A stretch of DNA of 64,000 nucleotides from an uncultured Thiodictyon sp. GTDB lineage: Bacteria > Pseudomonadota > Gammaproteobacteria > Chromatiales > Chromatiaceae. This document shows, in pieces, positions 1 to 23,982 of the stretch (positions within the stretch are counted from its first letter, which is position 1; every line of letters starts with the position of its first letter). The stretch is taken from positions 1-64,000 of the forward strand of contig NZ_CAJAXH010000311.1 of assembly GCF_903946935.1 (NCBI RefSeq). Direction: 5' to 3'. The translations under genes and the position numbers were made by a program. Below the pieces are notes generated by a model, which was given only the letters and a program-made list of their open reading frames with translations, was not told where the DNA came from and made no database searches.

Positions 1-525
1 AGCGCCGTTCTTGAGGGGGATCGTCAACCAACCGTTTCAGCATCGCCGCGCGTCGGCGAGGGGCTGCTGTGCCTACCTTTTCGCGCTGCCGCCGCGTACT
101 CGCCTTGGCCGACCACGATGCGGGGGAGCGGGAATTGCTGCTTATCGCCGGACGACCTTGCAGTTCCACGACCGCCGCCGTCAACGCAGCCACGCGCCAC
201 CAGCCCCCCCGATCAATGCACTTTTTCTCAGCGCCGCTCAGGTCCGGCAGGGATTCCATGGCCAGGAGTTATCCGCCTCCGCGCCTCGTGCTCAAGCAAA
301 ACAAACGCGGCCGGGCCGCGGGACCTGAGTAGTTACCGAACGCCAAGTAATTTACAATCAATATTACGACTTGTTTGAAAAGTTTCGCGGGGCCTGCAAG
401 ACCCTTTTCGGCGAGCATTATGCATTTGCCCCGCAACTGCGCACACTTCACGCTGAGAATTGCAAGATTATCGCGAACAAAAAACCGCAAAACCCTTATC
501 GCATAGGTCTATCGTAAATTTCGCC
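1..525. other. Unassigned region before the MBOAT gene
   Basis: Several short overlapping open frames exist here, but none has a ribosome binding site, a recognisable domain or convincing codon use, and none could be assigned. The right-hand part (about 340-525) is visibly AT-richer than the first 300 bases and probably holds the promoter of the acetyltransferase gene. The left part could be the degraded end of a gene outside the window; I see nothing that proves it. Confidence 0.4.
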
Positions 526-2115
526 ATGCTCTTCAATTCTTACAGCTTTATCTTTATATTCTTGCCGATCGCTTTTGCCGGTATGTTCTGGCTGGGACGA
601 TACAGCCATCGGCTGGCTGCGTTATGGCTGGGGTTAGCGTCGTTGGCTTTTTACGCCGTTTGGGATTCCCGCATGGTCTTGCTGCTACTCGCGTCAGTAG
701 CATTCAACTACGGCGCGGGCTACTGGATAGGAGTGAGCCGAGCCACTGGCGCTGTTGAGCACGCCAAGCATACCTTGATTGCCGCGATTACTTTAAATCT
801 AATGATGCTGGGGTATTTTAAGTACACCAACTTTTTCATCACCTCGGCCAACGCGCTTTTCGGTGGCCATATTCCTGCACTTGACATCATCCTACCCCTG
901 GGCATTTCCTTTTTCACTTTCACCCAGATCGCCTTTCTGGTCGATGCCTATCGCGGGATCGCCCGCGAATACAATTTCATTCACTACCTACTGTTCGTCA
1001 CCTATTTCCCGCATCTGATTGCCGGGCCGGTGTTACACCACAAACAGATGATGCCGCAGTTCGCCAACCCGGCCACGTATCGCATTAGTCCCGAACACAT
1101 GGCCGTAGGGATAACCATTTTTGTGCTGGGCCTAGCCAAGAAAGTGCTGATCGCCGATACGCTTGCCGACTATGCCACGCCGATTTTTGGCGCCGCGAAC
1201 GCGGGCCAACAATTGATGCTTTTCGAAGCCTGGGTCGGCGCGCTGACTTATACGCTGCAACTCTATTTTGATTTCTCCGGCTATTCGGACATGGCCATTG
1301 GGTTGTCGCTGATGTTCAATGTCCGGTTGCCGCTAAATTTCGATTCACCCTATAAGGCGCTCAACATTATAGACTTCTGGCGCCGCTGGCACATGACGTT
1401 GTCGGCCTTTCTGCGCGACTATCTCTACATCCCACTTGGCGGCAATCGTAAAGGCCCATTCCGCCGTTATCTCAACCTCATGGCCACCATGCTACTCGGC
1501 GGCCTGTGGCACGGTGCCGGCTGGACCTTTGTCATCTGGGGCGGATTGCACGGACTCTATCTGACGATCAACCACGGCTGGCGCGAAGTGAAAGCGCGGC
1601 ACGGCTGGGGCGACGGCGGACACTTAGCCAGACTCGTCGCCCGCACACTTACTTTTCTCGCAGTCGTCGTGGCCTGGGTCTTCTTCCGCGCCAACAGCCT
1701 TGCCGCGGCACAATCGGTCTTGGCCGGCATGGTGGGGATGAATGGCATTGCGTTGCCCAACGCGCTCCAAGCACGGCTCTCGACATTGCTGGAAATAGTG
1801 CCACATCAGCAGATTGCGTTCACTGGTTTACTGCCCGCAAGCAACACTGTCGGCGTCCATGCGCTGACTTTTATCGCTGTCGGTCTCGCTCTCGTCTGGC
1901 TGTTCCCCAACGTCCATCAAATTATGCGGAACTACAAACCCACTTGGGAGGATATGGCGAATATGCCCGTGTCCGCCGCCCTACCGCGCGGGTATGTCAC
2001 ACAATTGCTGACCTGGCGGCCGATAACCAGCCATGCTGTTCTGATTGGCCTGTTATTCTATGCTTGCTTGATTTCGCTGACAAAAGTCAGTGAGTTTCTG
2101 TATTTCCAGTTCTAG
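526..2115 (+). CDS. MBOAT family membrane O-acyltransferase (AlgI-like)
   Basis: A 529-residue polytopic protein of the membrane-bound O-acyltransferase family, the type that passes acetyl groups across the inner membrane to a secreted polysaccharide or another surface polymer (AlgI, PatA, DltB relatives). It has about ten hydrophobic segments, the family signature around DFSGYSDMAIG, the RRWHMTLSAFLRDYLYIPLGG block, and the GLWHGAGWTFVIWGGLHG segment carrying the conserved histidine. ATG 526 was chosen because translation there starts directly with a membrane-type N-terminus (MLFNSYSFIFIFLP); the longer frame from 460 adds an unrelated leader. It is followed after 2 bases by the gene at 2118, so the two are probably one operon. 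The substrate polymer cannot be told from sequence. Base composition is lower in GC than the nif genes downstream, which suggests a later acquisition. Confidence 0.88.
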   Translation: MLFNSYSFIFIFLPIAFAGMFWLGRYSHRLAALWLGLASLAFYAVWDSRMVLLLLASVAFNYGAGYWIGVSRATGAVEHAKHTLIAAITLNLMMLGYFKYTNFFITSANALFGGHIPALDIILPLGISFFTFTQIAFLVDAYRGIAREYNFIHYLLFVTYFPHLIAGPVLHHKQMMPQFANPATYRISPEHMAVGITIFVLGLAKKVLIADTLADYATPIFGAANAGQQLMLFEAWVGALTYTLQLYFDFSGYSDMAIGLSLMFNVRLPLNFDSPYKALNIIDFWRRWHMTLSAFLRDYLYIPLGGNRKGPFRRYLNLMATMLLGGLWHGAGWTFVIWGGLHGLYLTINHGWREVKARHGWGDGGHLARLVARTLTFLAVVVAWVFFRANSLAAAQSVLAGMVGMNGIALPNALQARLSTLLEIVPHQQIAFTGLLPASNTVGVHALTFIAVGLALVWLFPNVHQIMRNYKPTWEDMANMPVSAALPRGYVTQLLTWRPITSHAVLIGLLFYACLISLTKVSEFLYFQF

Positions 2116-2117
2116 CC

Positions 2118-3284
2118 ATGCGCCGGTATCTGATCGCTCTGCTTGTCTCGGCAATACTGCCAGCTGCCGCAGTCACCGGAATCAACTGGCTGATTGATCC
2201 ATACCGAATTTTTCACAAACCCTGGGTTCGCGATAACTATTACCTCAATACCAGCAAGATGCGGATCGAGGCCAGCGGGATCATCAACACCGAAGATTTC
2301 GACTCCATCATACTCGGCACCAGCATGGCAGCCAACTTCTCGCCCAATGAGGCAAGTCAAGTCTTCCGAAGCCATTTCGTCAACATCTCCTTGGATGGCT
2401 CCTCGATCGCAGAGCGATCTATTGTATTAGCGTATGCACTCAAGAACAGAAATCTCTCACGGGTGATTTTCTCGCTGGATGGGACATCATCGGGAAACTC
2501 CGCGATAAACGGCACGCCGATCACACCCTATATCCGGCTATATGACGATAACCCACTGAACGATATATTCCTATACGCATCCAACATCAAAATTATGCAG
2601 TATGCGTTGTGTAGAAACAGGGTGTTTTCAAGCAATCGCCTGTGCCCAAACACAAGAGACCTGGAAACCTTGGTCGAGTGGCACTCAGACTGGGACCATC
2701 GCCGGCGATTTGGCGGGCTGTCCAAATGGTTGGCGGCGACCAACAGCGGTCAAGTCCTAAATGCATTACACACAATCGCCGACAGTATCAATGCCATCAA
2801 CTCCGGAAAGATCAAGGAAATCGATTGGACCGAGGTGGCTGCGGCACAGACAAATGGCCAACGGGAATTTAAGGAGACTCTGCTAAGTTTCGCTGCCAAG
2901 TATCCGGCAACGAACTTTTATCTGTTCTTCCCGCCATGCTCGCGTTTGCAGTATGCCATCATGAAACAAAGTACTCCGCAAGCTTTCGAGAATTATCTTG
3001 AAACTGTACGATTCATGGTGCAGGAAAGTGCTCGATACTCAAACATCAAGGTCTTTGGCTTTGAAACCGAATCCTTTCTTGACGACATCGCAAATTACAA
3101 AGACACGAGCCACTACCATCAGCGTTATAATTCCAAAATGCTACGCTGGATGAAGAGCGGTGAGCATCAATTGACTCCGTCGAATCTTGACGCATACATT
3201 GCCGTCATTACTGAGCGGGCAGCCAATTATCCTCTCAAGAACATCGGCGCCCAAATCGACGCCTATTTGGCAAGAAAGCCGTAA
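2118..3284 (+). CDS. Membrane-anchored protein, probable partner of the MBOAT acyltransferase
   Basis: A 388-residue protein with an N-terminal hydrophobic segment (about residues 5-22) and a large domain expected outside the cytoplasm. Residues about 60-75 contain IILGTSMAANFSPNEA, which resembles the Gly-x-Ser nucleophile region of SGNH-like acetyltransferase partners (AlgX/AlgJ type), and HYHQRYNSKM near residue 335 could supply the histidine of such a site. MBOAT acyltransferases commonly work with a separate SGNH-like protein that completes transfer to the polymer, and the 2-base spacing to the MBOAT gene fits this. The SGNH assignment is inference: the rest of the sequence is not recognised. 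The gene is clearly AT-richer than the window average. Confidence 0.65.
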   Translation: MRRYLIALLVSAILPAAAVTGINWLIDPYRIFHKPWVRDNYYLNTSKMRIEASGIINTEDFDSIILGTSMAANFSPNEASQVFRSHFVNISLDGSSIAERSIVLAYALKNRNLSRVIFSLDGTSSGNSAINGTPITPYIRLYDDNPLNDIFLYASNIKIMQYALCRNRVFSSNRLCPNTRDLETLVEWHSDWDHRRRFGGLSKWLAATNSGQVLNALHTIADSINAINSGKIKEIDWTEVAAAQTNGQREFKETLLSFAAKYPATNFYLFFPPCSRLQYAIMKQSTPQAFENYLETVRFMVQESARYSNIKVFGFETESFLDDIANYKDTSHYHQRYNSKMLRWMKSGEHQLTPSNLDAYIAVITERAANYPLKNIGAQIDAYLARKP

Positions 3285-3368
3285 CCCGAGCGGGTCCTGC
3301 TGGCCGCCGTCTTCCATCTTGTCGCGCCCCTTCCAACGCTGACGCCTTGGGCTCGGGAAACGGAGCAT

Positions 3369-3390
3369 GCGCCGAGCTGATGCTCGGCGC
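3369..3390. terminator. Hairpin between convergent genes
   Basis: GCGCCGAGC, loop TGAT, GCTCGGCGC forms a perfect 9-bp stem between the end of the gene at 2118-3284 and the end of nifA. There is no U-tract on either side, so it is either a weak bidirectional terminator or a dispersed palindrome. Confidence 0.4.
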
Positions 3391-3403
3391 TCCAGGGGAC
3401 GAC

Positions 3404-5050
3404 TCAGAACTGCCGCACCTTGATGTTCAAGGTCTGGATCCGATAGGCGATCTGCCGCGGCGTCATGTTGAGCAGACGCGCAGCCTTGGCCTGAACCCAG
3501 CCCGCCTCCTCCAGCGCGGCAATCACCCGCTCGCGCTCGTCCAGGTCGGGATCGTCCAGGTCGACCTTCGGGACCGACTCCATCGGCGATTGGGGACCTG
3601 AATCCGCCTCGGCACCGGCGCCGACAAGAGTGCCGCTCCCCGCACTGGTCGAGCGCCCATCCCAGGCGCTGACATCCAGCCCGGTGAGCTCGATCACCGA
3701 CCGGTCAATGGTGCCATCGGCGCTCATCACGGCCGCCCGCTCCATGCAGTTCTCCAGTTCGCGCACATTGCCGGGCCAGTCGTGACGCATGAGGATGCGC
3801 AGGGCACTGTCGGTGATCGACAGATCCCGGCCCTGCATCCGCGCGACCTTGGTGATCAGGAACCGGGCCAGGTCCGGCACGTCCTCGATCCGCTCGCGCA
3901 ACGCCGGCATGCGGATAGGCATGACGTTGAGCCGGTAATAAAGGTCCTCGCGGAACTCACCGGCGCGCACCTCGGACTCCAGGTCCCGGTTGGTAGCGGC
4001 GATGATGCGCACGTCGACCTTGAGTGTCCGCCCGCCGCCGACCCGCTCGAATTCGCCCTCCTGGAGCACGCGCAGTAGCTTGGCCTGGAAGGCGGGGGTG
4101 ATCTCGCCGATCTCGTCCAGAAACAGGGTGCCACCATCGGCCTGCTCGAAGCGGCCCTTGCGCATGGCCACCGCCCCGGTAAATGAGCCTTTCTCGTGGC
4201 CGAAGAGTTCGGACTCCAACAGGTTGTCCGGTAGGGCCGCGCAGTTGAGCTTGACGAAGGGGGCGCGGGCGCGCGGCGAGTTGTAATGGATGGCGTTGGC
4301 GATCAGCTCCTTGCCCGTGCCCGACTCACCGCGGATCAGGACCGTCGTGGTCCACTTGGCGACCTGCCTGACCTGGTCGAACACGATCCGCATCGGCTGG
4401 GTGTGGCCGATGATGCTATCGAATCCGTGTACGCCCTTCACCTCGCGGCGTAGTTTATCGCGCTCCTCCCGCAGGGCCGCCTGCTCAGCCGCCACCCCGC
4501 GCGCCAGGCGGATGGCCTGGCCGATGAGGTTGGCCACCATCTCCAGGAACCGGGCGCGCTCCTCCAAAAGACCGTCCGCTACCGGTGGCTGGGCGGCGAA
4601 GACCCCAACGGCGGAACCCTCACCGATCCGGATGGGGACCCCGATAAAGGGCAGCTCCGGTCGGTAGAGGTTGAGCCGGTCCAAGAAACGGGGTTCATCC
4701 CCCACCCGGGGCAGAATCCAGGGTTGGTTCTTCTCCAGGATGCGGCCGATCACACCCTCGCCGGGTCGGTAGCGAACCGGCTCGAAGGGGTCGGCGTCCT
4801 CCTCGTTATAGAGTGCGCTGATCATCAGTTCGCCGCTCTCCTCCTCGAGCAGGCTAACCAGACCATTGCACAGCCGGCCGCGCTCGTGTAGCACCCGCAA
4901 CACCTCGCGCAGCGTCTGGCTCAGGTCCAGTGAGCGGCTCAGCACAGTGCTGACCTCATAGAGTGCGGCCAACTGGGTTTCTAAGAGCTCGAGGCGGGCC
5001 GCATCTGTGTTGACTGGGGCCAGTGGATCGCGATTCATCTGCTCACTCAT
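3404..5050 (-). CDS. nifA: Nif-specific transcriptional activator NifA
   Basis: A 548-residue sigma-54-dependent activator of nitrogen-fixation genes. Residues about 15-185 form the GAF domain, about 215-450 the AAA+ domain (Walker A GESGTGKE, Walker [12 protein letters not shown], arginine-containing second region ATNRDLE), and the C-terminus is a Fis-type helix-turn-helix ([19 protein letters not shown]). The linker between AAA+ and DNA-binding domain has no CxxxC cysteine motif, so this is the NifL-controlled class rather than the directly oxygen-sensitive class. The sigma-54 contact loop reads GSFTGA instead of the usual GAFTGA. The start codon overlaps the nifL stop (ATGAGTGA), so translation is coupled to NifL, as expected for an activator and its antagonist made in fixed ratio. 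Confidence 0.95.
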
Positions 5051-6683
5051 CCGCTGCCACGGCGTTCAGGGTGAGTAGCATGCGGCAGCCGTCCTGATAG
5101 TCCGGATCGACCTCGATACTGCCCCCGTGGGCCGTCACGATCTCCTGGGCCATCGCCAACCCCATGCCGGCGCGCCCACGGCGATTGCGCCAACCGATAT
5201 AGAAGGGCTCGAAGACCCGGTAGCGCTCTCCGCGAGGGATGCCCCGGCCGTTGTCCTGTACGGTCACCTCCACCGCGCCGTCCAACTGGCGGGTGGCGAG
5301 TAACAACTCCCGTTGTGGCCGCCCGGATTCGTTCAGCGCCTGAATAGCATTGTCGATCAAGTGCTTGAAGAGCGAGCGCAACGAATCCTGATGGCCCGAG
5401 AGCGGCGGCAACAGGGGCGCCGGGCGCCAGTCCACCACAATGCCGGCCGCCAGCAGCCGGTCCGTCTCCAGCACCAGGACCTGCCGCAGCAGGTCGTTGA
5501 CGTTGACCATCACCCCGCTCTCGCGCGGACCCTCCGGCAGGGCCGCCTTGAGGGTGTCCAGGGCACGCGCCCCGGAGCGGCTGATCTCCTCCAGCATCCC
5601 GGCCAGGGTCGCAAGGCTGGCATTGCCCCCGCGCGCCATGGCCGCGGCGGCCTGAATCACGTTCATGGGGGCCTGAATCTGATAGATGGCCGCCGCCAGC
5701 GCCTCGCGCATGCCGTGGGCCAACTGCTGCTCGGCTAGCCGCGCGCGCAAGTTCTCCACATGCGCCCGATCCACCTCGCGACGGCGGGCGGTGACCTCGT
5801 TGGCCAGCAGGAGCATCCGCCGCTCGCCCGGCTTCTGGCGACCGAAGAAACCGCGCGCGCTGGGGTCGAATTCGTCTGCCGGAGTGCCGGAGCAGGAGAA
5901 CCAGCGCGGACCGTTCGACCCCGGGACACTGATGCTGACCTCCAGGTCCTTGAATGCTCGCCCGCCCAGACACTCCGCCAGGGGGTCCAGGCCGACCTGC
6001 TCGCGTAGCGCGGAGCTTAGGACCTGAGCTGGCTCCTGCCCGTGCAGCTCACCGGAGAGCTTCTTGTGTTCCCGGTTATTGAGGATCACCCGCCCCTCGG
6101 AATCGAGCAGCACGATCACTACCGGGGCCGCGTCCAGCACCGTCTCGATACGCGCCTTCTGGCGGCGTAGCTCACCCTCCAGCTCGTGTACCTTCGTCAC
6201 GTCACGGTGCATGCCGAGAAAATATTTGAGCTCCCCATGGCAATCAAGTACTGGGGCGATCACCAGTTCAGCCAGATAGTCCCCGCCCTGCTTGGTGCGG
6301 TTGATCAGGGTCCCGGTCCAGGTCTGCTTGCGCTGGATGGTCCGCCACAGGTGCTGATAGACGTTCTGCGGGGTGGCGTGGTTGGAGAGGATCCCCTCGT
6401 TCTTGCCGATTACCTCGTCGCGGCTGTAGCCGGTCAGGACCTCGAATGCACGGTTGGCATAGAGGATGGTCGCGCCGACGTCGGTGATCGAGATGGCCGA
6501 TGGGGCCTGCTCCACGGCCTCGAAAAAGAGCCGTGGCGAGAGCGGGTCGCGGGGGTTGCCCGCCATCAGGGTGAGGGCCTCGATGACCTCCGCCGGGGTG
6601 CCAGCCGGAGGGGCGGCGAGGAACTCACCCAATGCGGTGGCGACGAGCTGTTCCGGGGACTCCGGGGATGGTCGGGCCGACAC
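5043..6683 (-). CDS. nifL: Nitrogen fixation regulatory protein NifL
   Basis: The 546-residue anti-activator that inhibits NifA under oxygen or fixed nitrogen. Domains in order: PAS1 (about residues 55-160, where A. vinelandii NifL binds the redox-sensing FAD), PAS2 (about 180-290), a helical H-like region around [13 protein letters not shown], and a GHKL ATPase domain with N-box [12 protein letters not shown]1 box DNGRGIP and [16 protein letters not shown]. The H-like region lacks the phospho-accepting histidine of true kinases, consistent with NifL acting by protein contact. The start is GTG 6683, preceded by GGAG with a 6-base spacer; the frame is open up to 6965 but the extra N-terminus is basic and without a domain. 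It overlaps nifA by 8 bases. Confidence 0.92.
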
Positions 6684-6848
6684 GGCGTTCTCCAATAGAT
6701 TGGTGTTGGGAAGGTGGAACCGAAAAAGAAAATTTGTCCGCGAATAACCGCGAAAAATGGCAGATACGGCCGGTCGCCCCGCTTGGGGCCGGCCCGTCCG
6801 GCGGCCTGTCGATATTACGACAATTCTACTGGACCGCGGCATGGGTGT

Positions 6849-6864
6849 TGTCGTGTCGTCAACA
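6849..6864 (+). promoter_or_regulatory. NifA upstream activator site TGT-N10-ACA
   Basis: TGT (6849-6851), ten bases, ACA (6862-6864) matches the NifA binding consensus exactly, and the outer bases extend the symmetry (TTGTCG... CGTCAACA). It lies between divergent nifL and rnfB, about 150 bp upstream of the sigma-54 element at 7011, a normal distance for looping activation. Confidence 0.75.
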
Positions 6865-7010
6865 GCCAAGAGGACGGATGACTCCCTCAGCGGCCGCCCG
6901 CCGGGCCGAAGCGGCACTCGCGAATAAGCCGCAACACGCTGATCTTCTAGAGTCTTTAGCTGCACTTTGACCTAAGTTGGGGTTGTCGAAGCACCGCTAC
7001 CAGAAGCACC

Positions 7011-7026
7011 TGGCACCCAGCTTGCA
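7011..7026 (+). promoter_or_regulatory. Sigma-54 (-24/-12) promoter of rnfBCH
   Basis: TGGCAC, five bases, TTGCA: the invariant GG and GC are exactly ten bases apart. It faces rnfB, whose start codon is about 190 bases downstream, leaving an unusually long leader. Together with the NifA site at 6849 it places rnfBCH under nitrogen-fixation control. Confidence 0.8.
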
Positions 7027-7140
7027 TTGTAGTCCCTAAGCAAGGTCCAACGCGCGGCTGCCACGCCGGAAAGGCCTCGGTCCTGCTGGTTGGCGCACCG
7101 CTGGCCGTGGGCCGCTCGCTGATCGGCCCAATGACATTAT

Positions 7141-7170
7141 TTTGCGTTCATTTGCGTTCATTTGCGGACC
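7141..7170 (+). repeat. Tandem decamer TTTGCGTTCA
   Basis: Two exact copies of TTTGCGTTCA followed by TTTGCGGACC, in the leader of rnfB. CGTTCATTTGCGGAC recurs just upstream of the APC permease gene (about 36468-36482), so it is part of a dispersed repeat family. Confidence 0.6.
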
Positions 7171-7217
7171 AAAATTCGTTCTGAGCCGCTGACCGCTTGC
7201 ACCAGAGGCATCGAATC

Positions 7218-7751
7218 ATGCTCGCCGCCATTGGCAGTCTCTCCGTTCTCGGTCTGATCTTGGGCGCGGTCCTCGGGCTCGCCTCCCGCTATCTGCGGGT
7301 GGAGGGTAACCCATTGACTGCACAGGCCCTGGCACTGCTGCCCGGCTCCCAGTGCGGACAGTGCGGTTTCGTTGGCTGCGGCCAGGCGGCCGAGGCACTC
7401 ACCGCGGGCACCGCCCCGCCGACGGTCTGCCCACCCGGCGGGCGGGCCGTCGCCGAGGCCCTGGCCAGCCTGCTCGGCAAGACGGTGGATCTCGCGGGCG
7501 TGGCGGAAAAGGCCCCGACCGTCGCGCACATCAACGAAAACCTGTGTGTCGGGTGTACCAAGTGCTTCAAGCGCTGCCCCACAGACGCAATCATGGGGGC
7601 GAACAACATGATCCATAGCGTCTTCGCGGACGCCTGCATCGGCTGCGAGAAGTGTTTCGAGGTGTGCCCCACCGAGTGCATCGAGATGCGGCCCATCGCG
7701 GCGACCCTGCAAACCTGGTTCTGGCCCAATCCGGCCACGGTAACCGCCTGA
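7218..7751 (+). CDS. rnfB: Electron transport complex subunit RnfB
   Basis: A 177-residue iron-sulfur subunit of the Rnf ferredoxin:NAD oxidoreductase. It has an N-terminal membrane anchor (residues 1-24), an Fe4S domain with CGQCGFVGC and a later CPPGG (about residues 45-80), and two 4Fe-4S ferredoxin motifs, CVGCTKCFKRCP and CIGCEKCFEVCP. ATG 7218 was preferred over the in-frame TTG at 7197 because it begins the typical MLAAI anchor and has AGAGG upstream. In diazotrophs Rnf supplies low-potential ferredoxin or flavodoxin electrons for nitrogenase. It is first in an rnfB-rnfC-rnfH operon; rnfA, which normally precedes it, is not present. Confidence 0.93.
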   Translation: MLAAIGSLSVLGLILGAVLGLASRYLRVEGNPLTAQALALLPGSQCGQCGFVGCGQAAEALTAGTAPPTVCPPGGRAVAEALASLLGKTVDLAGVAEKAPTVAHINENLCVGCTKCFKRCPTDAIMGANNMIHSVFADACIGCEKCFEVCPTECIEMRPIAATLQTWFWPNPATVTA

Positions 7752-7765
7752 GTCGGGAGGCCCCC

Positions 7766-9226
7766 ATGAAGCTCTTTAAGATCCGCGGCGGCGTTCACCC
7801 GGAAGACCGCAAACACCTGGCCGCCAATCAAGCGATCGAGGACCTGCCACTGGCGCCCCTGCTGCACGTCCCCTTACAGCAGCACATCGGCAACCCCGCC
7901 ACGCCGGCGGTGCGCCGTGGCCAGCGGGTCGCCAAAGGCGAGCTCATCGGAGCGGCCCAGGGGCCGATGTCCGCCCCAGTCCATGCCCCGACCTCCGGGC
8001 GCATCATGGGGATCGGCAGCTTCCCGGCCCACCACGCCTCGGGGCTGTCGGTGCGCACCATCACGCTGCAACCCGATGGGGAGGATCGTTGGCTGGAAGG
8101 CTTGGAAGGGGTGCCCGACCCCTTCGCCCTGACACCGGAAGATGTCGCCGCACGGGTTGCGGCGGCCGGCATCGTCGGCATGGGCGGGGCGACCTTTCCC
8201 TCGGCGGTCAAGCTCAACCTGCGCACCAAATACAGTCTGCACACCTTGGTGATCAATGGGGCCGAATGCGAACCCTACCTCACCTGTGACGACCGGCTGA
8301 TGCGCGAGCACGCCGCTGGGGTCCTGGACGGCGCCCGCATCATGGCCCATGCGCTGGGGGTCTCGCGGATCATCATCGGGATCGAAAACAATAAGCCGCA
8401 AGCGCAGGACGCCATGACCGGGGTCGCCGCGCCCTATCCTGAGATCCGGGTGGCCCACCTGCCCATGCGCTTCCCGATGGGTTCCGAAAAACACCTGGTA
8501 CAGACACTCACCGGCCTGGAGACCCCTGCCCGCGGGCTCACGGCCGACATCGGGATCGTCGTCCACAATCCGGCGACCGCCTTCGCGGTCCACCAGGCCC
8601 TGCGCCAGGGCCGGCCACTCGTGGCGCGCTTGGTCACGGTGAGCGGCGCGGCCATCAACCGGCCGCGCAACCTGCGGGTGCCCCTGGGTACCCCGGTGCA
8701 GCACCTGATCGACCACTGCGGCGGCTTCCGGGAGGACCCGGCCAAGCTGGTGAGCGGCGGCCCCATGATGGGCCAACCGCTGCCGAGCACCCGGGTGCCG
8801 ATCGTGAAAGGCAGCAATGGGGTCCTGGCCCTCACCGCGACCGAGATCAACGCTGGCCCGAGCTCGCCCTGTATCCGCTGCGGCAGTTGTGTGGACGCCT
8901 GCCCCTGCGGGCTGCTGCCGCTCAACATGGCCGCCCACGCCCGCGCCGGGGACCTGGAGGGGACGGTGCGCCTGGGGCTCATGGACTGCATCGGCTGCGG
9001 TTCCTGCTCATTTGTCTGCCCGTCGCACATCCCGCTGGTGCAGTTTTTCAACTATGCCAAGGGCGAGATGGCCGCCCGCGGGCGCGCCAAACAGAAGCAG
9101 ACCGAGACCAGGCGCCTGGTAGAGGGCCGCGCGGAGCGGATGGAGGCGATCCAGCGCGCCAAGCGCGAGGCCATGGCGGCGCGCAAGCGCGACACTGCCA
9201 AGCCGGCCGCGGCCGCTGAGGCTTGA
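7766..9226 (+). CDS. rnfC: Electron transport complex subunit RnfC
   Basis: A 486-residue peripheral Rnf subunit that takes electrons from or gives them to NAD(H) through bound FMN. Seen in order: N-terminal RnfC domain (GGVHPEDRK), the Rossmann-like nucleotide-binding part (GMGGATFPSAVKL, NGAECEPYLT), an SLBB region, and two 4Fe-4S motifs near the C-terminus (CIRCGSCVDACPCG and CIGCGSCSFVCPS). The start is ATG 7766 behind GGGAGG; the frame is open from 7652 but that part overlaps rnfB. The C-terminal tail after residue about 440 is short and Ala/Lys/Arg-rich, without the long repeats found in some RnfC proteins. In the same operon as rnfB and rnfH. Confidence 0.95.
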   Translation: MKLFKIRGGVHPEDRKHLAANQAIEDLPLAPLLHVPLQQHIGNPATPAVRRGQRVAKGELIGAAQGPMSAPVHAPTSGRIMGIGSFPAHHASGLSVRTITLQPDGEDRWLEGLEGVPDPFALTPEDVAARVAAAGIVGMGGATFPSAVKLNLRTKYSLHTLVINGAECEPYLTCDDRLMREHAAGVLDGARIMAHALGVSRIIIGIENNKPQAQDAMTGVAAPYPEIRVAHLPMRFPMGSEKHLVQTLTGLETPARGLTADIGIVVHNPATAFAVHQALRQGRPLVARLVTVSGAAINRPRNLRVPLGTPVQHLIDHCGGFREDPAKLVSGGPMMGQPLPSTRVPIVKGSNGVLALTATEINAGPSSPCIRCGSCVDACPCGLLPLNMAAHARAGDLEGTVRLGLMDCIGCGSCSFVCPSHIPLVQFFNYAKGEMAARGRAKQKQTETRRLVEGRAERMEAIQRAKREAMAARKRDTAKPAAAAEA

Positions 9227-9272
9227 GCAAGAGGCGGACAACCACTTTCGATTTGACCCTGGAGGTTACCCA

Positions 9273-9536
9273 ATGCACGTCGGCGTCGCCTATGCAGACA
9301 AATTCAAACAGACCTGGCTCAAGCTCGACGTGCCGGACGGCAGCTCGGCGCGCGACGCCATCCTGCGCTCCGGACTGCTGGACCAATTCCCGGAGATCGA
9401 CCTGGCGCGCAACCAGGTCGGCATCTTCGGTAAGGTCGTGCGGCTCGACACGCCGCTGAAGGCCGGCAATCGGGTGGAGATCTACCGCCCCATCATCGCC
9501 GATCCCGAGACGGTGGAGCGGCGCGATCGCGAGTGA
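9273..9536 (+). CDS. rnfH: RnfH family protein
   Basis: An 87-residue ubiquitin-fold protein of the RnfH/UPF0125 family (HVGVAYADKFKQTWLKLDV, IFGKVVRLDTPLKAGNRVEIYRP). RnfH is normally the last gene of rnfABCDGEH operons and its exact role is not established. It has a clear GGAGG ribosome site and lies 46 bases after rnfC, directly where rnfD would be expected. This shows the operon has lost, or never had, rnfD, rnfG and rnfE at this site. Confidence 0.9.
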   Translation: MHVGVAYADKFKQTWLKLDVPDGSSARDAILRSGLLDQFPEIDLARNQVGIFGKVVRLDTPLKAGNRVEIYRPIIADPETVERRDRE

Positions 9537-9629
9537 AGGTCAAGGCGCACGGCTTATCTCGAGGACATCGCTGAACTGCCCGATCTCTGGCCTTGATCAT
9601 CATTCCGGCTACCGGTATATGCAACATTC

Positions 9630-9653
9630 GTCGCGGCCAGGGGGCCGCTCCTA
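9630..9653 (-). repeat. REP-like palindrome, copy 1
   Basis: On the minus strand this reads TAGGAGCGGCCCCC followed by TGGCCGCGAC, a short imperfect palindrome. Near-identical copies lie at 18716-18740 and 20047-20070. It sits at the left edge of a dead transporter fragment. Confidence 0.6.
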
Positions 9654-9677
9654 CCGAGCGCTGGGATACCGACAACG

Positions 9678-9857
9678 ATGAATGGGAAACACGGGCTTCT
9701 GCGCCACCTGGGGACGGCCAGGAGCGGCGCCTATTTCTCCGTGGCCCCATTTTTCGGCGCCGTCCCGGCGATCCGACTGCTGGGGGAAGCGCTCAGTCTG
9801 CCATTGCTGATCGCGGGCATCTTGATGGGATATCGGACGTTACGCATCGCGGCCTAG
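9678..9857 (+). pseudogene. C-terminal remnant of an EamA-family transporter
   Basis: The frame from ATG 9678 encodes 59 residues with HLGTARSGAYFSVAPFFGAV and LLGEALSLPLLIAGILMGY, which match the last two membrane helices of drug/metabolite (EamA) permeases, proteins of about 300 residues. Everything upstream is missing: the preceding frame is closed or non-coding and begins at a REP-like palindrome. The sequence also ends early, without the usual C-terminal tail. Its stop codon and that of the convergent ald gene share the same CTAG. A non-functional relic is the best reading. Confidence 0.7.
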
Positions 9858-10975
9858 ACGTCGCCCAGCAACGACTCCGCCGGGGTCAGGTCATAGCCCA
9901 AGGCCGCGGCCACCGCCGGATGAGTGACGCGGCCCGCGCAACAATTGAGTCCGGCGCGCAGGTGGGGATCGTCGGCCAAGGCGCGGCGCCACCCCTTGGC
10001 GGCCAGGGCCAGGACCGCGGGCAGGGTGGCATGATTGAGCGCATAGGCGGAGGTGCGCGGCACCGCCCCAGGCATGTTGGCCACGCAATAATGCAAAATC
10101 CCGTCCACCACATAGGTCGGTTGCGCATGGGTGGTCGGGCGCGAGGTCTCGAAGCAGCCACCCTGGTCGATGGCCACGTCCACCAACACCGCCCCCGGGT
10201 TCATGGTCCCGAGCTGGGCGCGGGTTACCAGACGCGGTGTGGACGCCCCCGGCACCAGGACCGCACCGACCACCAGGTCCGCACCGAGAAGCTCCGCCGC
10301 CAGCTCGGCCCGGGTCGAATAGAGCACCCGCGCGCCCACCCCGAAGTGAGTCGCCAACCGCTCCAGTAAGGCGGGGTTGCGGTCCAGGATGGTCACGTGC
10401 GCCTGCAGGCCGACCGCCATCTGGGCGGCGTTGAACCCCACCACACCCCCGCCCAGGATCAGTACCCGCGCCGGAGCCACCCCCGGGACGCCGCCCAGCA
10501 GCAGGCCCCGCCCACCGTTGGCCGCCTGCAACGCCCAGGCCCCGGCCTGAATCGCCAACCGGCCGGCGACCTGACTCATCGGTTTGAGTAGCGGCAGGCC
10601 GCCCTGGTCATCGGTGACCGTCTCGTAGGCGATGCAGACGGCCCCGGACGCCAACAGGTCCCGCGCCTGGTCCGGGTCGGGGGCCAGGTGCAGGTAGGTA
10701 AAGAGCACCTGATCAGGCCGCAGCTGTACCCGCTCCCCTGGCTGGGGCTCCTTCACCTTGACGATCAGCTCGCCACGGGCAAATACAGTCGCGGCATCTG
10801 CCACAATCTCCGCCCCGGCCGCCTGGTAATGCGCATCCCCAGCCCCGATGCCGGACCCCGCCTCAGTCTCCACCAGCACCTGATGGCCCTGATAGACCAG
10901 CTCGGCCACGGACTCCGGGGTGAGCCCGACCCGCAACTCCTGCGGCTTGATCTCTCGTGGTACACCGATCAGCAT
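9854..10975 (-). CDS. ald: Alanine dehydrogenase
   Basis: A 373-residue NAD-dependent L-alanine dehydrogenase (alanine + water + NAD to pyruvate + ammonium + NADH; reversible). The N-terminal half has the family motifs VPREIKPQELRVGLTP and VKVKEPQ, the middle has the dinucleotide fold VLILGGGVVGFNAAQMA, and the C-terminal half VDVAIDQGGCFETSRPTTH and NMPGAVPRTSAYAL, which are diagnostic for Ald. ATG 10975 begins MLIGVPRE as in other members; an in-frame TTG 15 bases upstream is less likely. It may feed nitrogen into pyruvate or release it, but nothing here shows its control. Convergent with the EamA relic. Confidence 0.95.
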   Translation of the reverse strand: MLIGVPREIKPQELRVGLTPESVAELVYQGHQVLVETEAGSGIGAGDAHYQAAGAEIVADAATVFARGELIVKVKEPQPGERVQLRPDQVLFTYLHLAPDPDQARDLLASGAVCIAYETVTDDQGGLPLLKPMSQVAGRLAIQAGAWALQAANGGRGLLLGGVPGVAPARVLILGGGVVGFNAAQMAVGLQAHVTILDRNPALLERLATHFGVGARVLYSTRAELAAELLGADLVVGAVLVPGASTPRLVTRAQLGTMNPGAVLVDVAIDQGGCFETSRPTTHAQPTYVVDGILHYCVANMPGAVPRTSAYALNHATLPAVLALAAKGWRRALADDPHLRAGLNCCAGRVTHPAVAAALGYDLTPAESLLGDV

Positions 10976-10993
10976 CTTGTCGCCCCCCAAGCA

Positions 10994-11179
10994 TCAGCGA
11001 CTCGGCCCGAAGATAAACCACAGGATCAGACCGAGCACCGGCAACAACAGGATCACCACGATCCAGATGACCTTACGGCCGGTCCCGGCGCGACTCTGTA
11101 CGATCTTGACGATGGCATAGACCATCAAGACCAAATGGATCAGGCCCAGCGGGCCGAGGACTTCGATATTCATGTTCAT
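10994..11179 (-). CDS. Small PLDc_N-type membrane protein
   Basis: A 61-residue protein with two hydrophobic helices (about residues 8-26 and 38-57) separated by a basic loop, ending in LGLILWFIFGPSR. The segment GRKVIWIVVILLLPVLGLILWFIFG is the signature of the short PLDc_N domain also found at the N-terminus of cardiolipin synthases; stand-alone copies are common and of unknown role. Eighteen bases separate it from ald, so co-transcription is likely. Two possible ATG starts lie two codons apart (11179, 11173). Confidence 0.75.
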   Translation of the reverse strand: MNMNIEVLGPLGLIHLVLMVYAIVKIVQSRAGTGRKVIWIVVILLLPVLGLILWFIFGPSR

Positions 11180-11295
11180 GTCTTAGTGCTCCAAAGCGAT
11201 ATCATTCGAGTGTTAGGCTTGCATGACGGCCCAGAGGGTGCAAGATCCCTCCGACCCTGTCCAGAGTCCCCGCCGGCCGCTGGCCGCAGCAGCCC

Positions 11296-13305
11296 TCACG
11301 CCGCCAACCCCTTCCCCTGCAATTCCTTGATCTTGTCGCGCACCGCGGCCGCCTTCTCGAACTCCAGGTCTTTGGCGTGGCCGTACATCTCCTTCTCCAG
11401 TGCCTTGATCTTCTTGGCCATCTGCACCGGTGTGAGATTGGCGTATTCGACGATCTCCTCCGCCACCCGGGCATAGGCGCGGGCCGAGCGGGGGGCGCCG
11501 GGAGTGGAGCCCTCCAGGATGTCCGCGACCGATTTCTGAATCGACTGGGGGGTGATGCCGTGGGCCAGGTTGAAGGCGGTCTGTTTGGTGCGGCGCCGCT
11601 CGGTCTCGCCCATCGCCCGCTCCATGGAGCCGGTAATCCGGTCGGCGTAGAGGATGGCCTTGCCGTTGACATTGCGGGCGGCGCGGCCGATGGTCTGGAT
11701 GAGCGAACCCTCGGAGCGCAGGAAGCCCTCCTTGTCCGCGTCGAGGATGGCGACCAATGAGACCTCGGGCATATCGAGCCCTTCGCGCAGCAGGTTGATA
11801 CCCACCAGCACGTCGAATTCGCCCAGGCGCAGGTCGCGAATGATCTCGACCCGCTCCACGGTGTCGATGTCGGAATGCAGATAGCGGACCTTGACCCCGT
11901 GCTCATTGAGATACTCGGTCAGGTCCTCGGCCATGCGTTTGGTCAGTGTCGTCACCAGCACCCGCTCACCGACGGCGACGCGCAGCGTGATTTCGGACAG
12001 CAGATCATCCACCTGGGACAGGGCCGGACGCACCTCCAGTTCCGGGTCCACCAGTCCAGTGGGGCGCACCACCTGCTCCACCACGGCCCCGCCGGAGTGG
12101 GTGAGTTCATACTGACGCGGCGTGGCGGAGACATAGATGGTCTGGGGCTGGCGCGCCTGGAACTCCTCGAAGCGCATGGGGCGATTGTCGAGTGCGGAGG
12201 GTAGGCGGAAGCCGTATTCGACCAGGTTCTCCTTGCGCGAGCGGTCGCCGCGATACATACCGCCGAGCTGCGGGACCGTGACATGGCTCTCGTCGATCAC
12301 CACGATGGCGTTCGCCGGCAGGTAATCATAGAGCGTCGGCGGCGGCTCACCGGGGCCGCGACCGGAGAGATAGCGGCTATAGTTCTCGATGCCGGAACAA
12401 TAGCCTACCTCCATCATCATCTCCATGTCGAAAATGGTCCGCTGCTCCAGCCGCTGCGCCTCCAGCAGCTTGTTGTTGTCGCGTAACCAGGTGAGGCGGT
12501 CTTTCAGCTCCAGCTTGATCTGGTCGATGGCATTCAGCACGGTCTCGCGCGGCGTTGCGTAATGGGTCTTGGGGAAGACGGTATAGCGTGGCACCTTGCG
12601 CAGGACCTCGCCGGTGAGCGGATCGAAAACCGAAAGGGCCTCGATCTCGTCGTCGAATAGCTCAATGCGCACCGCCTCCTCGTCGGACTCGGCCGGGTGG
12701 ATGTCGATCACGTCGCCACGCACCCGGTAGGTGCCGCGGGCGAGCTCGATCTCATTGCGGCGGTATTGCAGGTCCGCGAGCCGCCGCAACAGCGCCCGCT
12801 GGTCGATCACATCGCCGCGGCGCAAGTGCAGCACCATCTTCAGATAGGCCTGCGGATCGCCCAATCCATAGATACTGGACACGCTTGCCACGATGATGAC
12901 GTCCGGGCGCTCCAGCAGCGCCTTGGTCGCCGACAGGCGCATCTGTTCGATATGCTCGTTGATCGAGGAGTCCTTCTCGATATAGGTATCGCTGGCCGGA
13001 ATATAGGCCTCCGGTTGATAATAGTCGTAATAAGAGACGAAGTATTCCACCGCATTGTGCGGAAAGAACTCGCGCATCTCACCATAGAGCTGGGCGGCGA
13101 GCGTCTTGTTGGGGGCGAGGATCAGGGCCGGCCGCTGGACCTGGGCGATGACATTCGCAATGGTGAAGGTCTTGCCGGAGCCGGTAACCCCAAGCAAGGT
13201 CTGGGCCGCCTCGCCGTCGCCGAGGCCCGCGACCAGGCGGCGGATGGCCTCCGGCTGGTCGCCGGCCGGGGCGAACTGGGCGGCCAGATCGAAGTGTTTC
13301 GACAT
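11296..13305 (-). CDS. uvrB: Excinuclease ABC subunit B
   Basis: The 669-residue damage-verifying helicase-like subunit of nucleotide excision repair. Visible are Walker A GVTGSGKT, the [12 protein letters not shown] beta-hairpin region used for damage probing, the DESH box, the helicase motif [23 protein letters not shown], and the C-terminal UVR motif ([24 protein letters not shown]) that contacts UvrC. ATG 13305 gives the normal [21 protein letters not shown] start; the frame is open further upstream but without homology. No LexA-type box was found upstream. Confidence 0.97.
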
Positions 13306-13557
13306 AACTGAAGCTCCGGCTATACTGAGCCACCAAGCGCACCGGCGGATCGGCAGGGTGGGCGCGAGCGGGCCCGGCCGCCCCCGCGAGCGGTCATCCG
13401 ACAGTGCCAAGGCGCCATTCAAACCCACCCAACACGGCGGCGGGCCGTTCGCCCAACGATGTCGAGAAGCCCCACGGCCGGTGCAGGCGCTCGGAGCGCC
13501 GCGGTGGTGTTCCTCACCATTATCCCTTGGTTGCTTTATTTAGGCGAGTAAAACCCC

Positions 13558-14202
13558 ATGCCTTATTTTGAAAAAAGACAGCGCCAGACACTCGAACAAA
13601 TCGCCGAGGTCAAACGGATCTTGGGGGCAACCGAACACGCCATGGGCAGCAAGATACCCACGTCGCTGTTAGTCACGAGTGCCTCGCCGGGAGAGGGGAA
13701 GAGTTTGTTTGCCGCCGTGCTCGCAACCGCCGCCGCCAATAGCGGAAAATTTCGCGTCGCCGCCATCGATCTGAATTGGCATCGTCCGGCACTGCATCAA
13801 TTTTTTGATCTTGAATTGAATCATTCCTCAACGGAACTTCTGGCCGGCGACTTGAGCACGCTCATGTGTTCGTCCGGACAGGATGCCTTGGATATTCTGA
13901 CCGCGCCGGCGGACTATTCCGACCTGAATACCCCTGCGTTTCCTGTAGCCAAGCGATTGGTCGAGCAGGCCGCCGCGGCCTATGACCTGGTCATCATCGA
14001 CAGTGCGGCGGTGTTCCCGACGAATCGCATGATGATGGACCCCGTGATGCTCTCAGGTATCGCCGATGGCGTTGTGATGCTGGTGTTAACCGCCGTCACG
14101 CCCAAGCAGCAGGTCAGAAAGGCGCAAAAGATCATGGAGACCGCCGGCGCGACGATCCTGGGTGTCATCGCTAATCAGCTAAGGATGTCGGCAGACAGCT
14201 AG
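13558..14202 (+). CDS. CpsD/CapB-type P-loop ATPase of polysaccharide export
   Basis: A 214-residue cytoplasmic ATPase of the bacterial tyrosine kinase (BY-kinase) family that works with Wzz-type chain-length regulators. It has Walker A SASPGEGKS (about residue 41), Walker A-prime VAAIDLNWHRP and Walker B YDLVIIDSAAV. The C-terminus lacks the tyrosine cluster that kinases of this family autophosphorylate, so it may be a non-kinase relative, as found in some exosortase-linked loci. The Wzz-like gene follows 120 bases downstream. No glycosyltransferase or export gene is nearby, so this looks like a small detached piece of an exopolysaccharide system. Confidence 0.8.
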   Translation: MPYFEKRQRQTLEQIAEVKRILGATEHAMGSKIPTSLLVTSASPGEGKSLFAAVLATAAANSGKFRVAAIDLNWHRPALHQFFDLELNHSSTELLAGDLSTLMCSSGQDALDILTAPADYSDLNTPAFPVAKRLVEQAAAAYDLVIIDSAAVFPTNRMMMDPVMLSGIADGVVMLVLTAVTPKQQVRKAQKIMETAGATILGVIANQLRMSADS

Positions 14203-14322
14203 AATCAAGCAGTCGCCATCACTGAACTGGGGTTGCAGGAACTTCACGGCCCCAACTGCCATGGTGATTGACTCATTATCGCCGCGACCTACCGGTGGTC
14301 GCACACACTTGAAGGAAATGAC

Positions 14323-15081
14323 ATGAGCTATTACCTCAAACGCTATAACAGGGCACTGCGGGTTAACAAGAAGTGGGCGTTGCTGGCGTTGTTGGCGCCT
14401 GGCCTGTATCTGATTTTCGCGGTGTTCAACGATGTGACATTCAAGGTCTCGCGGGACTTCGCTCCGTATTCCGGCGCCAGCCCGGTCGCGGCGCTCGACC
14501 GCCCGGCCGTCACCTTAAAGCTAGAGGACCTGGTGGCTAACCCCGAGCTCCTGTTTTTCGACCAACTCGCGTTTCCGCAATTGCACTGGAAGCTGCGGCT
14601 CTTGGAGAATACCGGCGCGCTCAAGAGCGATGCGGCACTGCGCACGCTGACCCAATCCGCCATGACGTTGGGCGATGCGGGGGACGCCCGGCTACGCCTA
14701 AGCTATAGCGGCAACGACCCGCAGATCGGCAGCGCACTGGTCGCTTTCTATAGCGACCGACTCCTCAAGAGAATCAATGATGGAATCATTCGCACTCAGC
14801 CAAGAACCGCGCCAGGACCGCTGACATTCAGAGGCGTGGACCGCATGACGGTGGGCGACATCCAGGTCGTCGAAGTGAGGTCCATCTGGCGTGCCGAGCG
14901 GCTGCGGCCCACGCTGTTGGCGCTTTTGCTATCCTCCTTGGGCGTGCTGGTACTCATTGCGGTTCTGGAACTTGCAGACCCCTCATTCAAGTCAGAGAGA
15001 CAAATGGCCCGCTATTTGGGGGTACCGGTCTTGGGTGGGCTCCCGGATGCCGGGCCGCTGGTGCGAAGGCTGCCGGAGTAG
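14323..15081 (+). CDS. Wzz/GumC-like chain-length determinant protein
   Basis: A 252-residue inner-membrane protein with one helix near the N-terminus (about residues 18-36), a periplasmic domain, and a second helix near the C-terminus (about 196-215) followed by VLELADPSFKSERQMARYLGVPVLGGLPD. The last segment is the cytoplasmic motif typical of polysaccharide co-polymerases just after the second helix (compare DP..KSE..L...LGVPVLG). The periplasmic part is short for the family, which usually has 250 or more residues there. Partner of the ATPase just upstream. Confidence 0.72.
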   Translation: MSYYLKRYNRALRVNKKWALLALLAPGLYLIFAVFNDVTFKVSRDFAPYSGASPVAALDRPAVTLKLEDLVANPELLFFDQLAFPQLHWKLRLLENTGALKSDAALRTLTQSAMTLGDAGDARLRLSYSGNDPQIGSALVAFYSDRLLKRINDGIIRTQPRTAPGPLTFRGVDRMTVGDIQVVEVRSIWRAERLRPTLLALLLSSLGVLVLIAVLELADPSFKSERQMARYLGVPVLGGLPDAGPLVRRLPE

Positions 15082-15149
15082 TGCCGCGAAGCCCAACTCG
15101 CGATACCGCTTCGAGGGTCCAGGGCAACCCTGGTACGGGGGGAATAGAG

Positions 15150-15725
15150 ATGCGTTCGCCGATGCTGATACTGGTGCTCGGCCTCTGCGCGGCCGCCGCG
15201 GCGGCTGCGCCAGACGATCCGAAGACACGCCTGGAGGACGGTGAGGTCACGGTCACGCTACGCCCGATCGCGGGCAGCAGCCTGCCGGAGGTCACGGCCC
15301 GCGGGCTGATTGAGGCGCCCGCGGAGCGGATCTGGGCGATCATTGAGGACTGCGGTCAATTCGCGAAGACGATGCAGCACATCGCGCGTTCCAGGGAATT
15401 GTCGCGGCAGGGCCAGACGGTGGTGTGCGAAGTAGAGATCAGTCTGCCGCCGCCGCTGGCGAACCTGGTCGGCGTCACGCAGGCGGTCCATGTGGTGGGT
15501 CCACCCAAGTGGTCGCGCACCTGGCGCCTGTTGCGCGGCGACTACCTGGTCAATGAAGGCAGTTGGACATTGACGCGCTACGCCGACGACCCCCGGCGCA
15601 CGCTGGCCGTGTATCGCGTCCACGCCGTCCCAAAAACCCACTTGCCGGATGCCTTGCTGCGCTATGAACAGCGGCACGCACTCCCGGAACTCTTCAGGCA
15701 TTTGCGCCAGATTACAAAGGGTTAA
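15150..15725 (+). CDS. Exported START/SRPBCC-domain protein
   Basis: A 191-residue protein with a Sec signal peptide (MRSPMLILVLGLCAAAAAAA, cleavage about residue 20) and a helix-grip START-like domain: RGLIEAPAERIWAIIEDCGQFAKTM and a C-terminal helix LPDALLRYEQRHALPELFRHLRQI. Such domains bind hydrophobic ligands; the ligand is unknown. ATG 15150 was chosen because it starts the signal peptide and has GGGGGAA upstream. It follows the chain-length gene by 68 bases and may be in the same transcript. Confidence 0.75.
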   Translation: MRSPMLILVLGLCAAAAAAAPDDPKTRLEDGEVTVTLRPIAGSSLPEVTARGLIEAPAERIWAIIEDCGQFAKTMQHIARSRELSRQGQTVVCEVEISLPPPLANLVGVTQAVHVVGPPKWSRTWRLLRGDYLVNEGSWTLTRYADDPRRTLAVYRVHAVPKTHLPDALLRYEQRHALPELFRHLRQITKG

Positions 15726-15893
15726 GAGACCCATCCGCGCGCTTTAGCGCGACCTTCGCCGGAGTGGCCGAGGCTTGCCGCGGCCCGCCCCCCTGCCCCG
15801 GCCACATTCGTGCTTGTTCGTGACCCGCCGCACGGCTACCATCGCTAATAGACCCGAGTACGGGCGGTCCGAATGTAGTCCTTATCACTTTTT

Positions 15894-16802
15894 ATGATTT
15901 CCAAATCTGGCAGGCCGATGATCACCCTTGAAGCAGAGTCTATAGAAATCATCCGCGAGGCCGTGGCGACGGCCCGCAACCCGGTCATGCTGTATTCCAT
16001 CGGAAAGGACTCGTCGGTGATGCTGCACCTGGCGCGCAAGGCCTTTTATCCGGCACCGCCGCCATTTCCGCTGCTGCATGTCGATACCGGGTGGAAGTTC
16101 AAGGAGATGTACCTTCATCGCACGCGCATGGTCGCCGAGAGCGGTATGAGGCTCATCACACACACCAATCCGGAGGGGGTCGTGGCCGGGGTCAATCCAT
16201 TTATTCACGGTAGCAACTACCACACCGATGTGATGAAGACCCAGGGGCTGAAACAGGCGCTGGATGAATTGGGGAGCGACGTGGTATTCGGCGGCGCCCG
16301 CCGCGACGAGGAAAAGAGTCGGGCCAAGGAGCGAGTCTTCTCGTTTCGTGCCCCCGGCCACCGCTGGGACCCCAAGGCCCAGCGCCCCGAGCTGTGGAAT
16401 CTGTACAATACCCACGTCAAGCCAGACGAGACCATCCGGGTATTTCCCATCAGCAACTGGACGGAACTCGACATCTGGCAATACATTCACGCCGAGCGCA
16501 TTCCGATTGTACCACTCTATCTGGCGGCGGAGCGGCCGGTGGTCAAGCGCGATGGACAGTGGATCATGGTCGACGACGAGCGCTTTCCGTTCGCCCCAGG
16601 CGAGCAGGCGGAAATGAAACGAGTGCGCTTCCGCACCCTTGGGTGCTGGCCGCTGACGGCCGCAATCGAGAGCGATGCCGATACGCTCGAGGCCGTGATC
16701 GCCGAAACCTTCAATGCTCGAAGCTCCGAGCGTCAAGGGCGGTTGATCGATTCCGATATACCGGGGTCGATGGAAAAGAAAAAGCAAGAAGGGTATTTCT
16801 AA
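15894..16802 (+). CDS. cysD: Sulfate adenylyltransferase subunit 2
   Basis: A 302-residue ATP sulfurylase catalytic subunit, which makes adenosine 5'-phosphosulfate from sulfate and ATP. It has the PP-loop [29 protein letters not shown], the [15 protein letters not shown] motif and the C-terminal [13 protein letters not shown] region. The stop codon overlaps the cysNC start (TAATG), so the two subunits are translationally coupled. ATG 15894 was kept; an in-frame ATG at 15918 is also possible. The pair serves assimilatory sulfate activation. Confidence 0.96.

Positions 16803-21206: not shown

Positions 21207-23982
<2,776 letters not shown>

Follow-up and report, generated by a model that had tools for sequence, protein, structure and literature searches.

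A putatively nif-controlled partial Rnf operon, rnfBCH, is conserved in Thiodictyon, has arisen at least twice and probably serves a hybrid Rnf complex

The Rnf complex is usually described as being assembled from one operon. According to the excerpted parts of PMC12174285, RnfB trades electrons with ferredoxin and its small FeS domain hands them to RnfA-E, RnfC is the NAD side, with a long C-terminal helix that in A. vinelandii RNF1 contacts RnfB and RnfH, and electrons move uphill from NADH to low-potential ferredoxin unless the ion-driven core powers the step. The same excerpts describe RNF1 as nif-regulated and report a second rnf cluster in that genome, as occurs here. In Azoarcus BH72, too, there are two rnf clusters, and rnf1 depends on NifA (PMC3916325, in excerpt). 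The genome paper of T. syntrophicum names nif genes, 'rnf' being absent from its main text (PMC5944118). Our search of the open-access literature returned no recognised account of a partial nif-linked rnfBCH set or of a shared Rnf core.

In this work, we have analysed a window of 64,000 bases, positions 1 to 64,000 of contig NZ_CAJAXH010000311.1 from an uncultured Thiodictyon sp. (assembly GCF_903946935.1). It carries, beside nifLA, a set of rnfB, rnfC and rnfH (hereafter BCH) without rnfA, rnfD, rnfG and rnfE (hereafter ADGE). We find that this partial operon, with its predicted nif-type promoter, is conserved in the genus and has arisen at least twice, and the comparisons suggest that its products probably take part in a hybrid complex.

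The rnfBCH locus beside nifLA

In the window, the frames of rnfB, rnfC and rnfH are open, follow each other in that order and are divergent from nifL-nifA. The features of the locus are:

3404..5050, minus strand: nifA, nif-specific activator (TIGR01817, 710 bits against a cut-off of 529)
5043..6965, minus strand: nifL (TIGR02938, 536 bits against a cut-off of 242; matched residues 142-633 of 640)
6807..6822, plus strand: predicted distal NifA-type UAS, TGT-N10-ACA, the same site being present in the other three Thiodictyon loci
6849..6864, plus strand: predicted proximal NifA-type UAS, TGT-N10-ACA, with a matching site in the other three Thiodictyon loci
7011..7026, plus strand: predicted sigma-54 -24/-12 promoter, TGGCAC-N5-TTGCA, 207 bases before rnfB
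7218..7751, plus strand: rnfB, nif-type (TIGR01944, E 7.5e-58; A. vinelandii RNF1 RnfB, 8ahx_B, E 1.5e-50)
7766..9226, plus strand: rnfC, nif-type (TIGR01945, E 1.2e-173; 8ahx_C, E 6.3e-160)
9273..9536, plus strand: rnfH (PF03658, E 9.9e-34; 8ahx_H, E 9.5e-18)
9643..9654, plus strand: REP-like half element GGCCGCTCCTAC, found twice in the window against a mean of 0.00 in shuffles

The nifL ORF as listed is probably too long at its 5΄ end. The site at 7011-7026 is the sole exact match to TGGCAC-N5-TTGCA in the 64 kb window. RnfB has an N-terminal membrane anchor, read from its sequence, an FeS domain and a two-cluster ferredoxin domain, and RnfC has an NADH/FMN domain, an SLBB domain and two [4Fe-4S] motifs; a profile scan found the FeS, Fer4, Complex1_51K and SLBB domains all present in the BCH proteins, the cysteine motifs being read from the sequence. 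Among solved structures, RnfB and RnfC matched best chains B and C of 8ahx, and RnfH matched best 2hj1, with 8ahx_H second.

The initial annotation had described the set as lacking rnfA, rnfD, rnfG and rnfE, and our searches agree. Queried with the RnfA, D, G and E of this same genome, window positions 1-16000 gave no tblastn match (E 1e-5) on either side of the set. The nif-type A, D, G and E of relatives gave a best E of 0.87 against positions 6701-9860, with no decayed copies detected there, while in the Lamprocystis control of this search all four were matched at E 1.8e-120 or lower. The neighbours of the set are nifLA upstream and, on the downstream side, alanine dehydrogenase and uvrB. 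That ADGE might be hidden at the end of the contig or in an assembly gap, which the annotation had named as a possible source of error, is ruled out, since the contig continues to 79,439 bases with genes on both sides of BCH and the same layout is seen in a genome of three contigs (G079). A one-off deletion is also ruled out, because four genomes share the BCH layout.

The gap between rnfC and rnfH is of 46 bases in the window against 319 in L043 (9158-9476), 261 in L045 (6063-6323) and 86 in L122, and GTTGTC/GACAAC repeats lie inside this gap in L043 and L045. Past rearrangement had been proposed from a REP element and an EamA relic directly downstream of the set. The remark on the REP element is plausible, and in L043 a fuller palindrome like the GGCCGCTCCTAC element lies downstream of rnfH; the EamA relic is unconfirmed, the frame at 9678-9857 (59 aa) having no Pfam match at E 0.01. 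Further along the window, two minus-strand frames (21207-22859 and 22379-23404) that we take to be HsdR-like type I restriction frames overlap in two frames, which suggests a frameshifted gene at 21207-23404.

A second operon and the history of the loss

The window genome (G000; 5,995,245 bases, 321 contigs, completeness 99.96) bears a second rnf operon on another contig, C57, where rnfA-B-C-D-G-E-H form one run preceded by a gene matching RseC below the family cut-off. A profile search of the genome placed both of its RnfA/E-family matches and its sole RnfD match on C57, and RnfG was identified there. The genome thus encodes RnfBCH twice and a membrane core once. The initial annotation had offered a second locus as one source of the missing genes and proposed to look for rnfADGE or a complete operon elsewhere in the genome; the complete operon on C57, with the only RnfD and RnfA/E matches, supports that option. 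A third RnfC was considered and rejected, the other PF01512 matches being NuoF-family (C166) or, by eye, NuoF/HoxF-like frames (C202, C17).

We use 'nif-type', '57-type' and 'housekeeping' as labels of this analysis, assigned by RnfC identity and tree, 57-type being the second, different complete rnfABCDGEH operon, as on C57. Family searches brought in 116 genomes. Among the matches listed, 38 of 150 rnfC had no listed rnfD nearby, and the window genome and 37 other places were then examined. In 28 of these 37 stretches rnfD was present; the nine without it are the BCH loci L043, L045 and L047, the housekeeping A-B-C loci L050 and L063, and L052, L073, L075 and L078, where the contig stops at or just past rnfC.

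The arrangement nifA-nifL / rnfB-rnfC-rnfH without ADGE is found in four Thiodictyon genomes, namely the window genome, G079, G107 and the MAG of uncultured Thiodictyon sp. isolate D14_bin-1308 (L122), each of which also has a complete 57-type operon (L233 in the last); L123 is contig C368 of G107 again and was left out of later counts. RnfD was matched once in G079, and each of the five BCH genomes examined has a complete core. The three BCH genomes examined for nifH (G000, G079 and G107) all have it over the cut-off. A genome of the same genus with about 3.0 Mb (G035) has the complete 57-type operon only and no BCH: neither nifH (best 2.5e-67) nor NifL (best 1.4e-22) is over the cut-off, its one RnfH is that of the 57-type operon, and no nif-type RnfC is among the matches listed, where a sister-level score would have shown. 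Since G035, without nifH and NifL, is also without BCH, it ties BCH to nitrogen fixation, as a single event in a shrinking genome. This genome is probably that of 'Ca. Thiodictyon intracellulare', an endosymbiont of 2.9 Mbp described, in the excerpted text of PMC8195481, as having lost nifD and nifK. Its 57-type rnfD was matched in two pieces in different frames (L048:4902-6184), possibly through breakage or sequencing error.

BCH is not needed everywhere, because G057 and G114 (of the genus of Chromatium weissei) and G019 have nifH with one RnfD and one RnfH match each, no RnfC besides the 57-type among the matches listed, and no ETF-alpha match. In these three the 57-type Rnf alone appears to be enough, which counts against the hybrid complex proposed below. 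FixABCX as another electron source was looked for through ETF-alpha, with no match in G091, G057, G114, G019 or G033; ETF-alpha matches, which may be FixB or EtfA, occur in G000, G035, G079, G107 and G031.

Taking the window's RnfC as query, 80 relative loci were collected. Full rnfABCDGEH is present in 64, and 56 of these have NifL and NifA matches in the same stretch; the 16 incomplete loci are BCH-only (L122, L123 and L127), odd (L131 and L156) or on contigs ending in or near the operon (11). Lamprocystis (L124, L125) has complete nifLA-rnfABCDGEH (RnfC 85%) and also a 57-type operon (L234, L235). An IQ-TREE phylogeny of RnfC with 48 rows makes Thiodictyon BCH and the nif-linked RnfC of Lamprocystis sister groups (100/99), places the BCH of Chromatium weissei (L127, G091:C1) with the nif-linked RnfC of Thiocystis (97/91) and sets 57-type RnfC apart in a clade of its own (100/99). 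Because relatives have complete operons and the two BCH sets are placed separately in the tree, the comparison indicates that ADGE was lost, with B, C and H kept, at least twice. The initial annotation was right in this part of its rearrangement claim, ADGE having gone from an ancestral complete operon. It had also reckoned with a complete nif-type operon adjacent in relatives, which would have spoken against its reading; this is what other genera have, and in Thiodictyon BCH is the conserved state. The C. weissei BCH lies on another contig than its nifLA (G091:C9), after genes that by eye look like trpG, trpD and trpC, and has a UAS and a sigma-54-type promoter despite this distance from nifLA.

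Other irregular rnf loci were seen in the survey. A Thiocystis MAG (L131:214-2685) has, in this order, nif-type rnfC-rnfH, a 57-type rnfA and a DDE transposase, and the 213 bases upstream hold no rnfB; elsewhere the same MAG has a nif-type operon that is complete (L132) and a 57-type one truncated by its contig end (L232). A Thiotrichales MAG (L156:7456-11285) has rnfB-C-D-G, and rnfA, rnfE and rnfH were not detected in 12.5 kb; the contig is of low coverage and its rnfB frame may be broken. Genus g27 (three genomes) has housekeeping rnfA-B-C apart from D-G-E, by about 5 kb in L049:3786-13990, and no D was found within the 14 kb examined at L050:6360-9086 and L063:6117-8878. In G089 (1.6 Mb), a housekeeping-type rnfC lies near a contig end (L073:6241-7659), with rnfA and rnfB not detected in 6.2 kb upstream.

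Promoters, selection and residue comparison

Promoters were counted where a strict sigma-54 site has a UAS 60-350 bases upstream, identical sequences being counted once here and in the residue comparisons. This combination is present in all five distinct BCH loci and in 44 of 82 nif-type loci with rnfA, and in none of 10 57-type and 23 housekeeping rnf operons; the sixth rnfA-less row of the count is L156, which is not a BCH locus. When the pattern was loosened, each of the four Thiodictyon genomes with BCH showed a sigma-54-like site 785-816 bases before its 57-type rnfA (two genomes with one mismatch, two with two mismatches), which in L009 lies upstream of the RseC-like frame, and G035 showed none before its 57-type rnfA; no UAS was seen in the 1400 bases before rnfA in these four operons. 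Resampled controls of the four loci were matched with at most two mismatches in 47-75 of 200 cases and with one mismatch in 1-9 of 200, and those of the two loci with at most one mismatch in 5 and 7 of 200. The sites are a weak hint that sigma-54 may control the synthesis of the 57-type core as well. For BCH induced by NifA to be of use, the cell must also make the 57-type core, a dependence that counts against the hybrid. In C. weissei (L091) and G114 (L093), a sigma-54-like site is shared 132 bases before the 57-type rnfA, where the 57-type operon is perhaps taking over the nif role.

Thiodictyon BCH is under purifying selection. By NG86, on few pairs, its dN/dS is 0.047-0.064 for B, 0.055-0.125 for C and 0-0.111 for H, the Lamprocystis pair giving 0.053, 0.054 and 0.030, and the Thiodictyon 57-type operons 0.083-0.155, 0.131-0.208 and 0.202-0.243, respectively.

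Nif-type and 57-type RnfB are told apart by 16 columns, and 11 of these are in the ferredoxin domain, where Thiodictyon RnfB is 57-like at none and nif-like at nine. In the core-facing FeS domain, positions 52 and 56 flank the third cluster cysteine. V52 and Q56 are found in four of four Thiodictyon BCH and in 10 of 10 57-type RnfBs, while V or Q at these positions occurs in none of the 86 other distinct nif-type and none of the 26 housekeeping RnfBs; by codons, the change from P to V needs two base changes. Unchanged ferredoxin-domain sites with a changed FeS-domain pair are what would be predicted if RnfB docked on a foreign core and kept its ferredoxin partner, and the pair is a modest hint of docking on the 57-type core. 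It could also be due to drift or to a short gene conversion, and C. weissei RnfB, with P at both 52 and 56, counts against co-adaptation. The total 57-like count was rejected as evidence of co-adaptation, Thiodictyon RnfB having 2 of 16 while 8 of 86 nif-type RnfBs have at least 2; the pair beside the FeS cluster is the one unusual feature. No shift was seen in RnfC, where one of 22 sites is 57-like in a state also found in 25 of 87 nif-type RnfCs, or in RnfH (none of five sites).

The proposed hybrid complex and known systems

We propose that the locus probably encodes a nif-regulated alternative peripheral module that docks on the shared 57-type Rnf core. This is the simplest reading because the genome has only one core, and, from the subunit contacts in the excerpts of PMC12174285, the kept set is the connected cytoplasmic part and the lost set the membrane core. 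An ancestral nif-linked rnfABCDGEH would have lost A, D, G and E in a lineage also holding a 57-type operon, keeping RnfB (the ferredoxin side), RnfC (the NADH side) and RnfH together with the NifA/sigma-54 promoter. During nitrogen fixation, these RnfBCH may displace their 57-type counterparts from the sole RnfADGE core or compete with them for it, and the resulting hybrid Rnf would drive electrons from NADH to the nif ferredoxin by the ion gradient, feeding nitrogenase. On balance, we lean towards the wider statement that one core would be served by two interchangeable RnfBCH modules, one general and one NifA-switched, so that the pump is re-targeted to the nitrogenase ferredoxin, and that this evolved at least twice in purple sulfur bacteria.

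An unlikely alternative is that the nif-linked operon is being lost stepwise and that BCH are survivors of little function. The genomes can be ordered in a graded series that would fit such decay, from two complete operons in Lamprocystis, Thiobaca and Thiocystis, through BCH and one operon in Thiodictyon and C. weissei, to the 57-type only in G057, G114 and G019 (among the matches listed). However, the dN/dS of BCH is as low as, or near, that of complete operons, and no trace of ADGE was detected, although four genomes have kept B, C, H and the promoter intact. The genes could also act by dosage, extra RnfB, RnfC and RnfH of no special kind raising the amount of assembled Rnf during nitrogen fixation, as the NifA-type promoter and the shared core would allow; we hold this improbable, since the ferredoxin domain of the nif-type RnfB stays distinct (0/11 sites 57-like), which suggests a different partner. 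Least probable of all is a module in which RnfB and RnfC, with RnfH, pass NADH electrons to ferredoxin or nitrogenase without RnfADGE, close to the soluble or peripheral module in a new configuration of the initial annotation, which our analysis does not support: although the kept subunits are exactly the three facing the cytoplasm, in two lineages, and their cluster and NADH/FMN domains are present, the membrane anchor of RnfB is kept, the reaction would have to run uphill with no ion-driven core to power it (PMC12174285, in excerpt), a reading of the neighbouring ORFs by eye gave no candidate for a bifurcating partner, and all five BCH genomes examined have a complete core.

If the hybrid complex is real, the choice of the electron partner (B, C, H) and the pumping of ions (A, D, G, E) would fall to separable parts of Rnf in an organism that has just one core, and nif transfer projects could perhaps take three rnf genes, not seven, into hosts with an Rnf core. 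A cultured strain of the same layout, T. syntrophicum Cad16T, probably exists, as we infer it to be G079, and the idea is directly testable.

How does the locus compare with known systems? Set beside a nif-type Rnf complex, it has B, C and H of the nif-type clade, NifA/sigma-54 motifs and intact domains, and a membrane core is available elsewhere in the genome, A, D, G and E being absent from the operon that holds BCH. RnfB, RnfC and RnfH of A. vinelandii RNF1 (PDB 8ahx) are homologous to those of the window over nearly their full length, but RNF1 has its own membrane core, whereas the nif-linked operon of the window is without A, D, G and E. The nearest sequences are those of the nif-linked rnfABCDGEH of Chromatiaceae (Lamprocystis, Thiocapsa, Thiorhodococcus, Thiocystis and others), which in most cases neighbour nifLA and in 44 of 82 loci have the same promoter type as BCH, but hold all seven genes. 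The 57-type rnfABCDGEH, as on C57, is a full Rnf set with its own B, C and H and the probable donor of the core; in contrast to BCH, 10 of 10 such operons are without the UAS and sigma-54 promoter, having only sigma-54-like sites in some. A precedent for the exchange of an input subunit on a related core is found in Na+-NQR, where NqrF replaces RnfB (PMC12174285, in excerpt). That exchange is permanent, whereas in the hybrid Rnf proposed here two modules would share one core.
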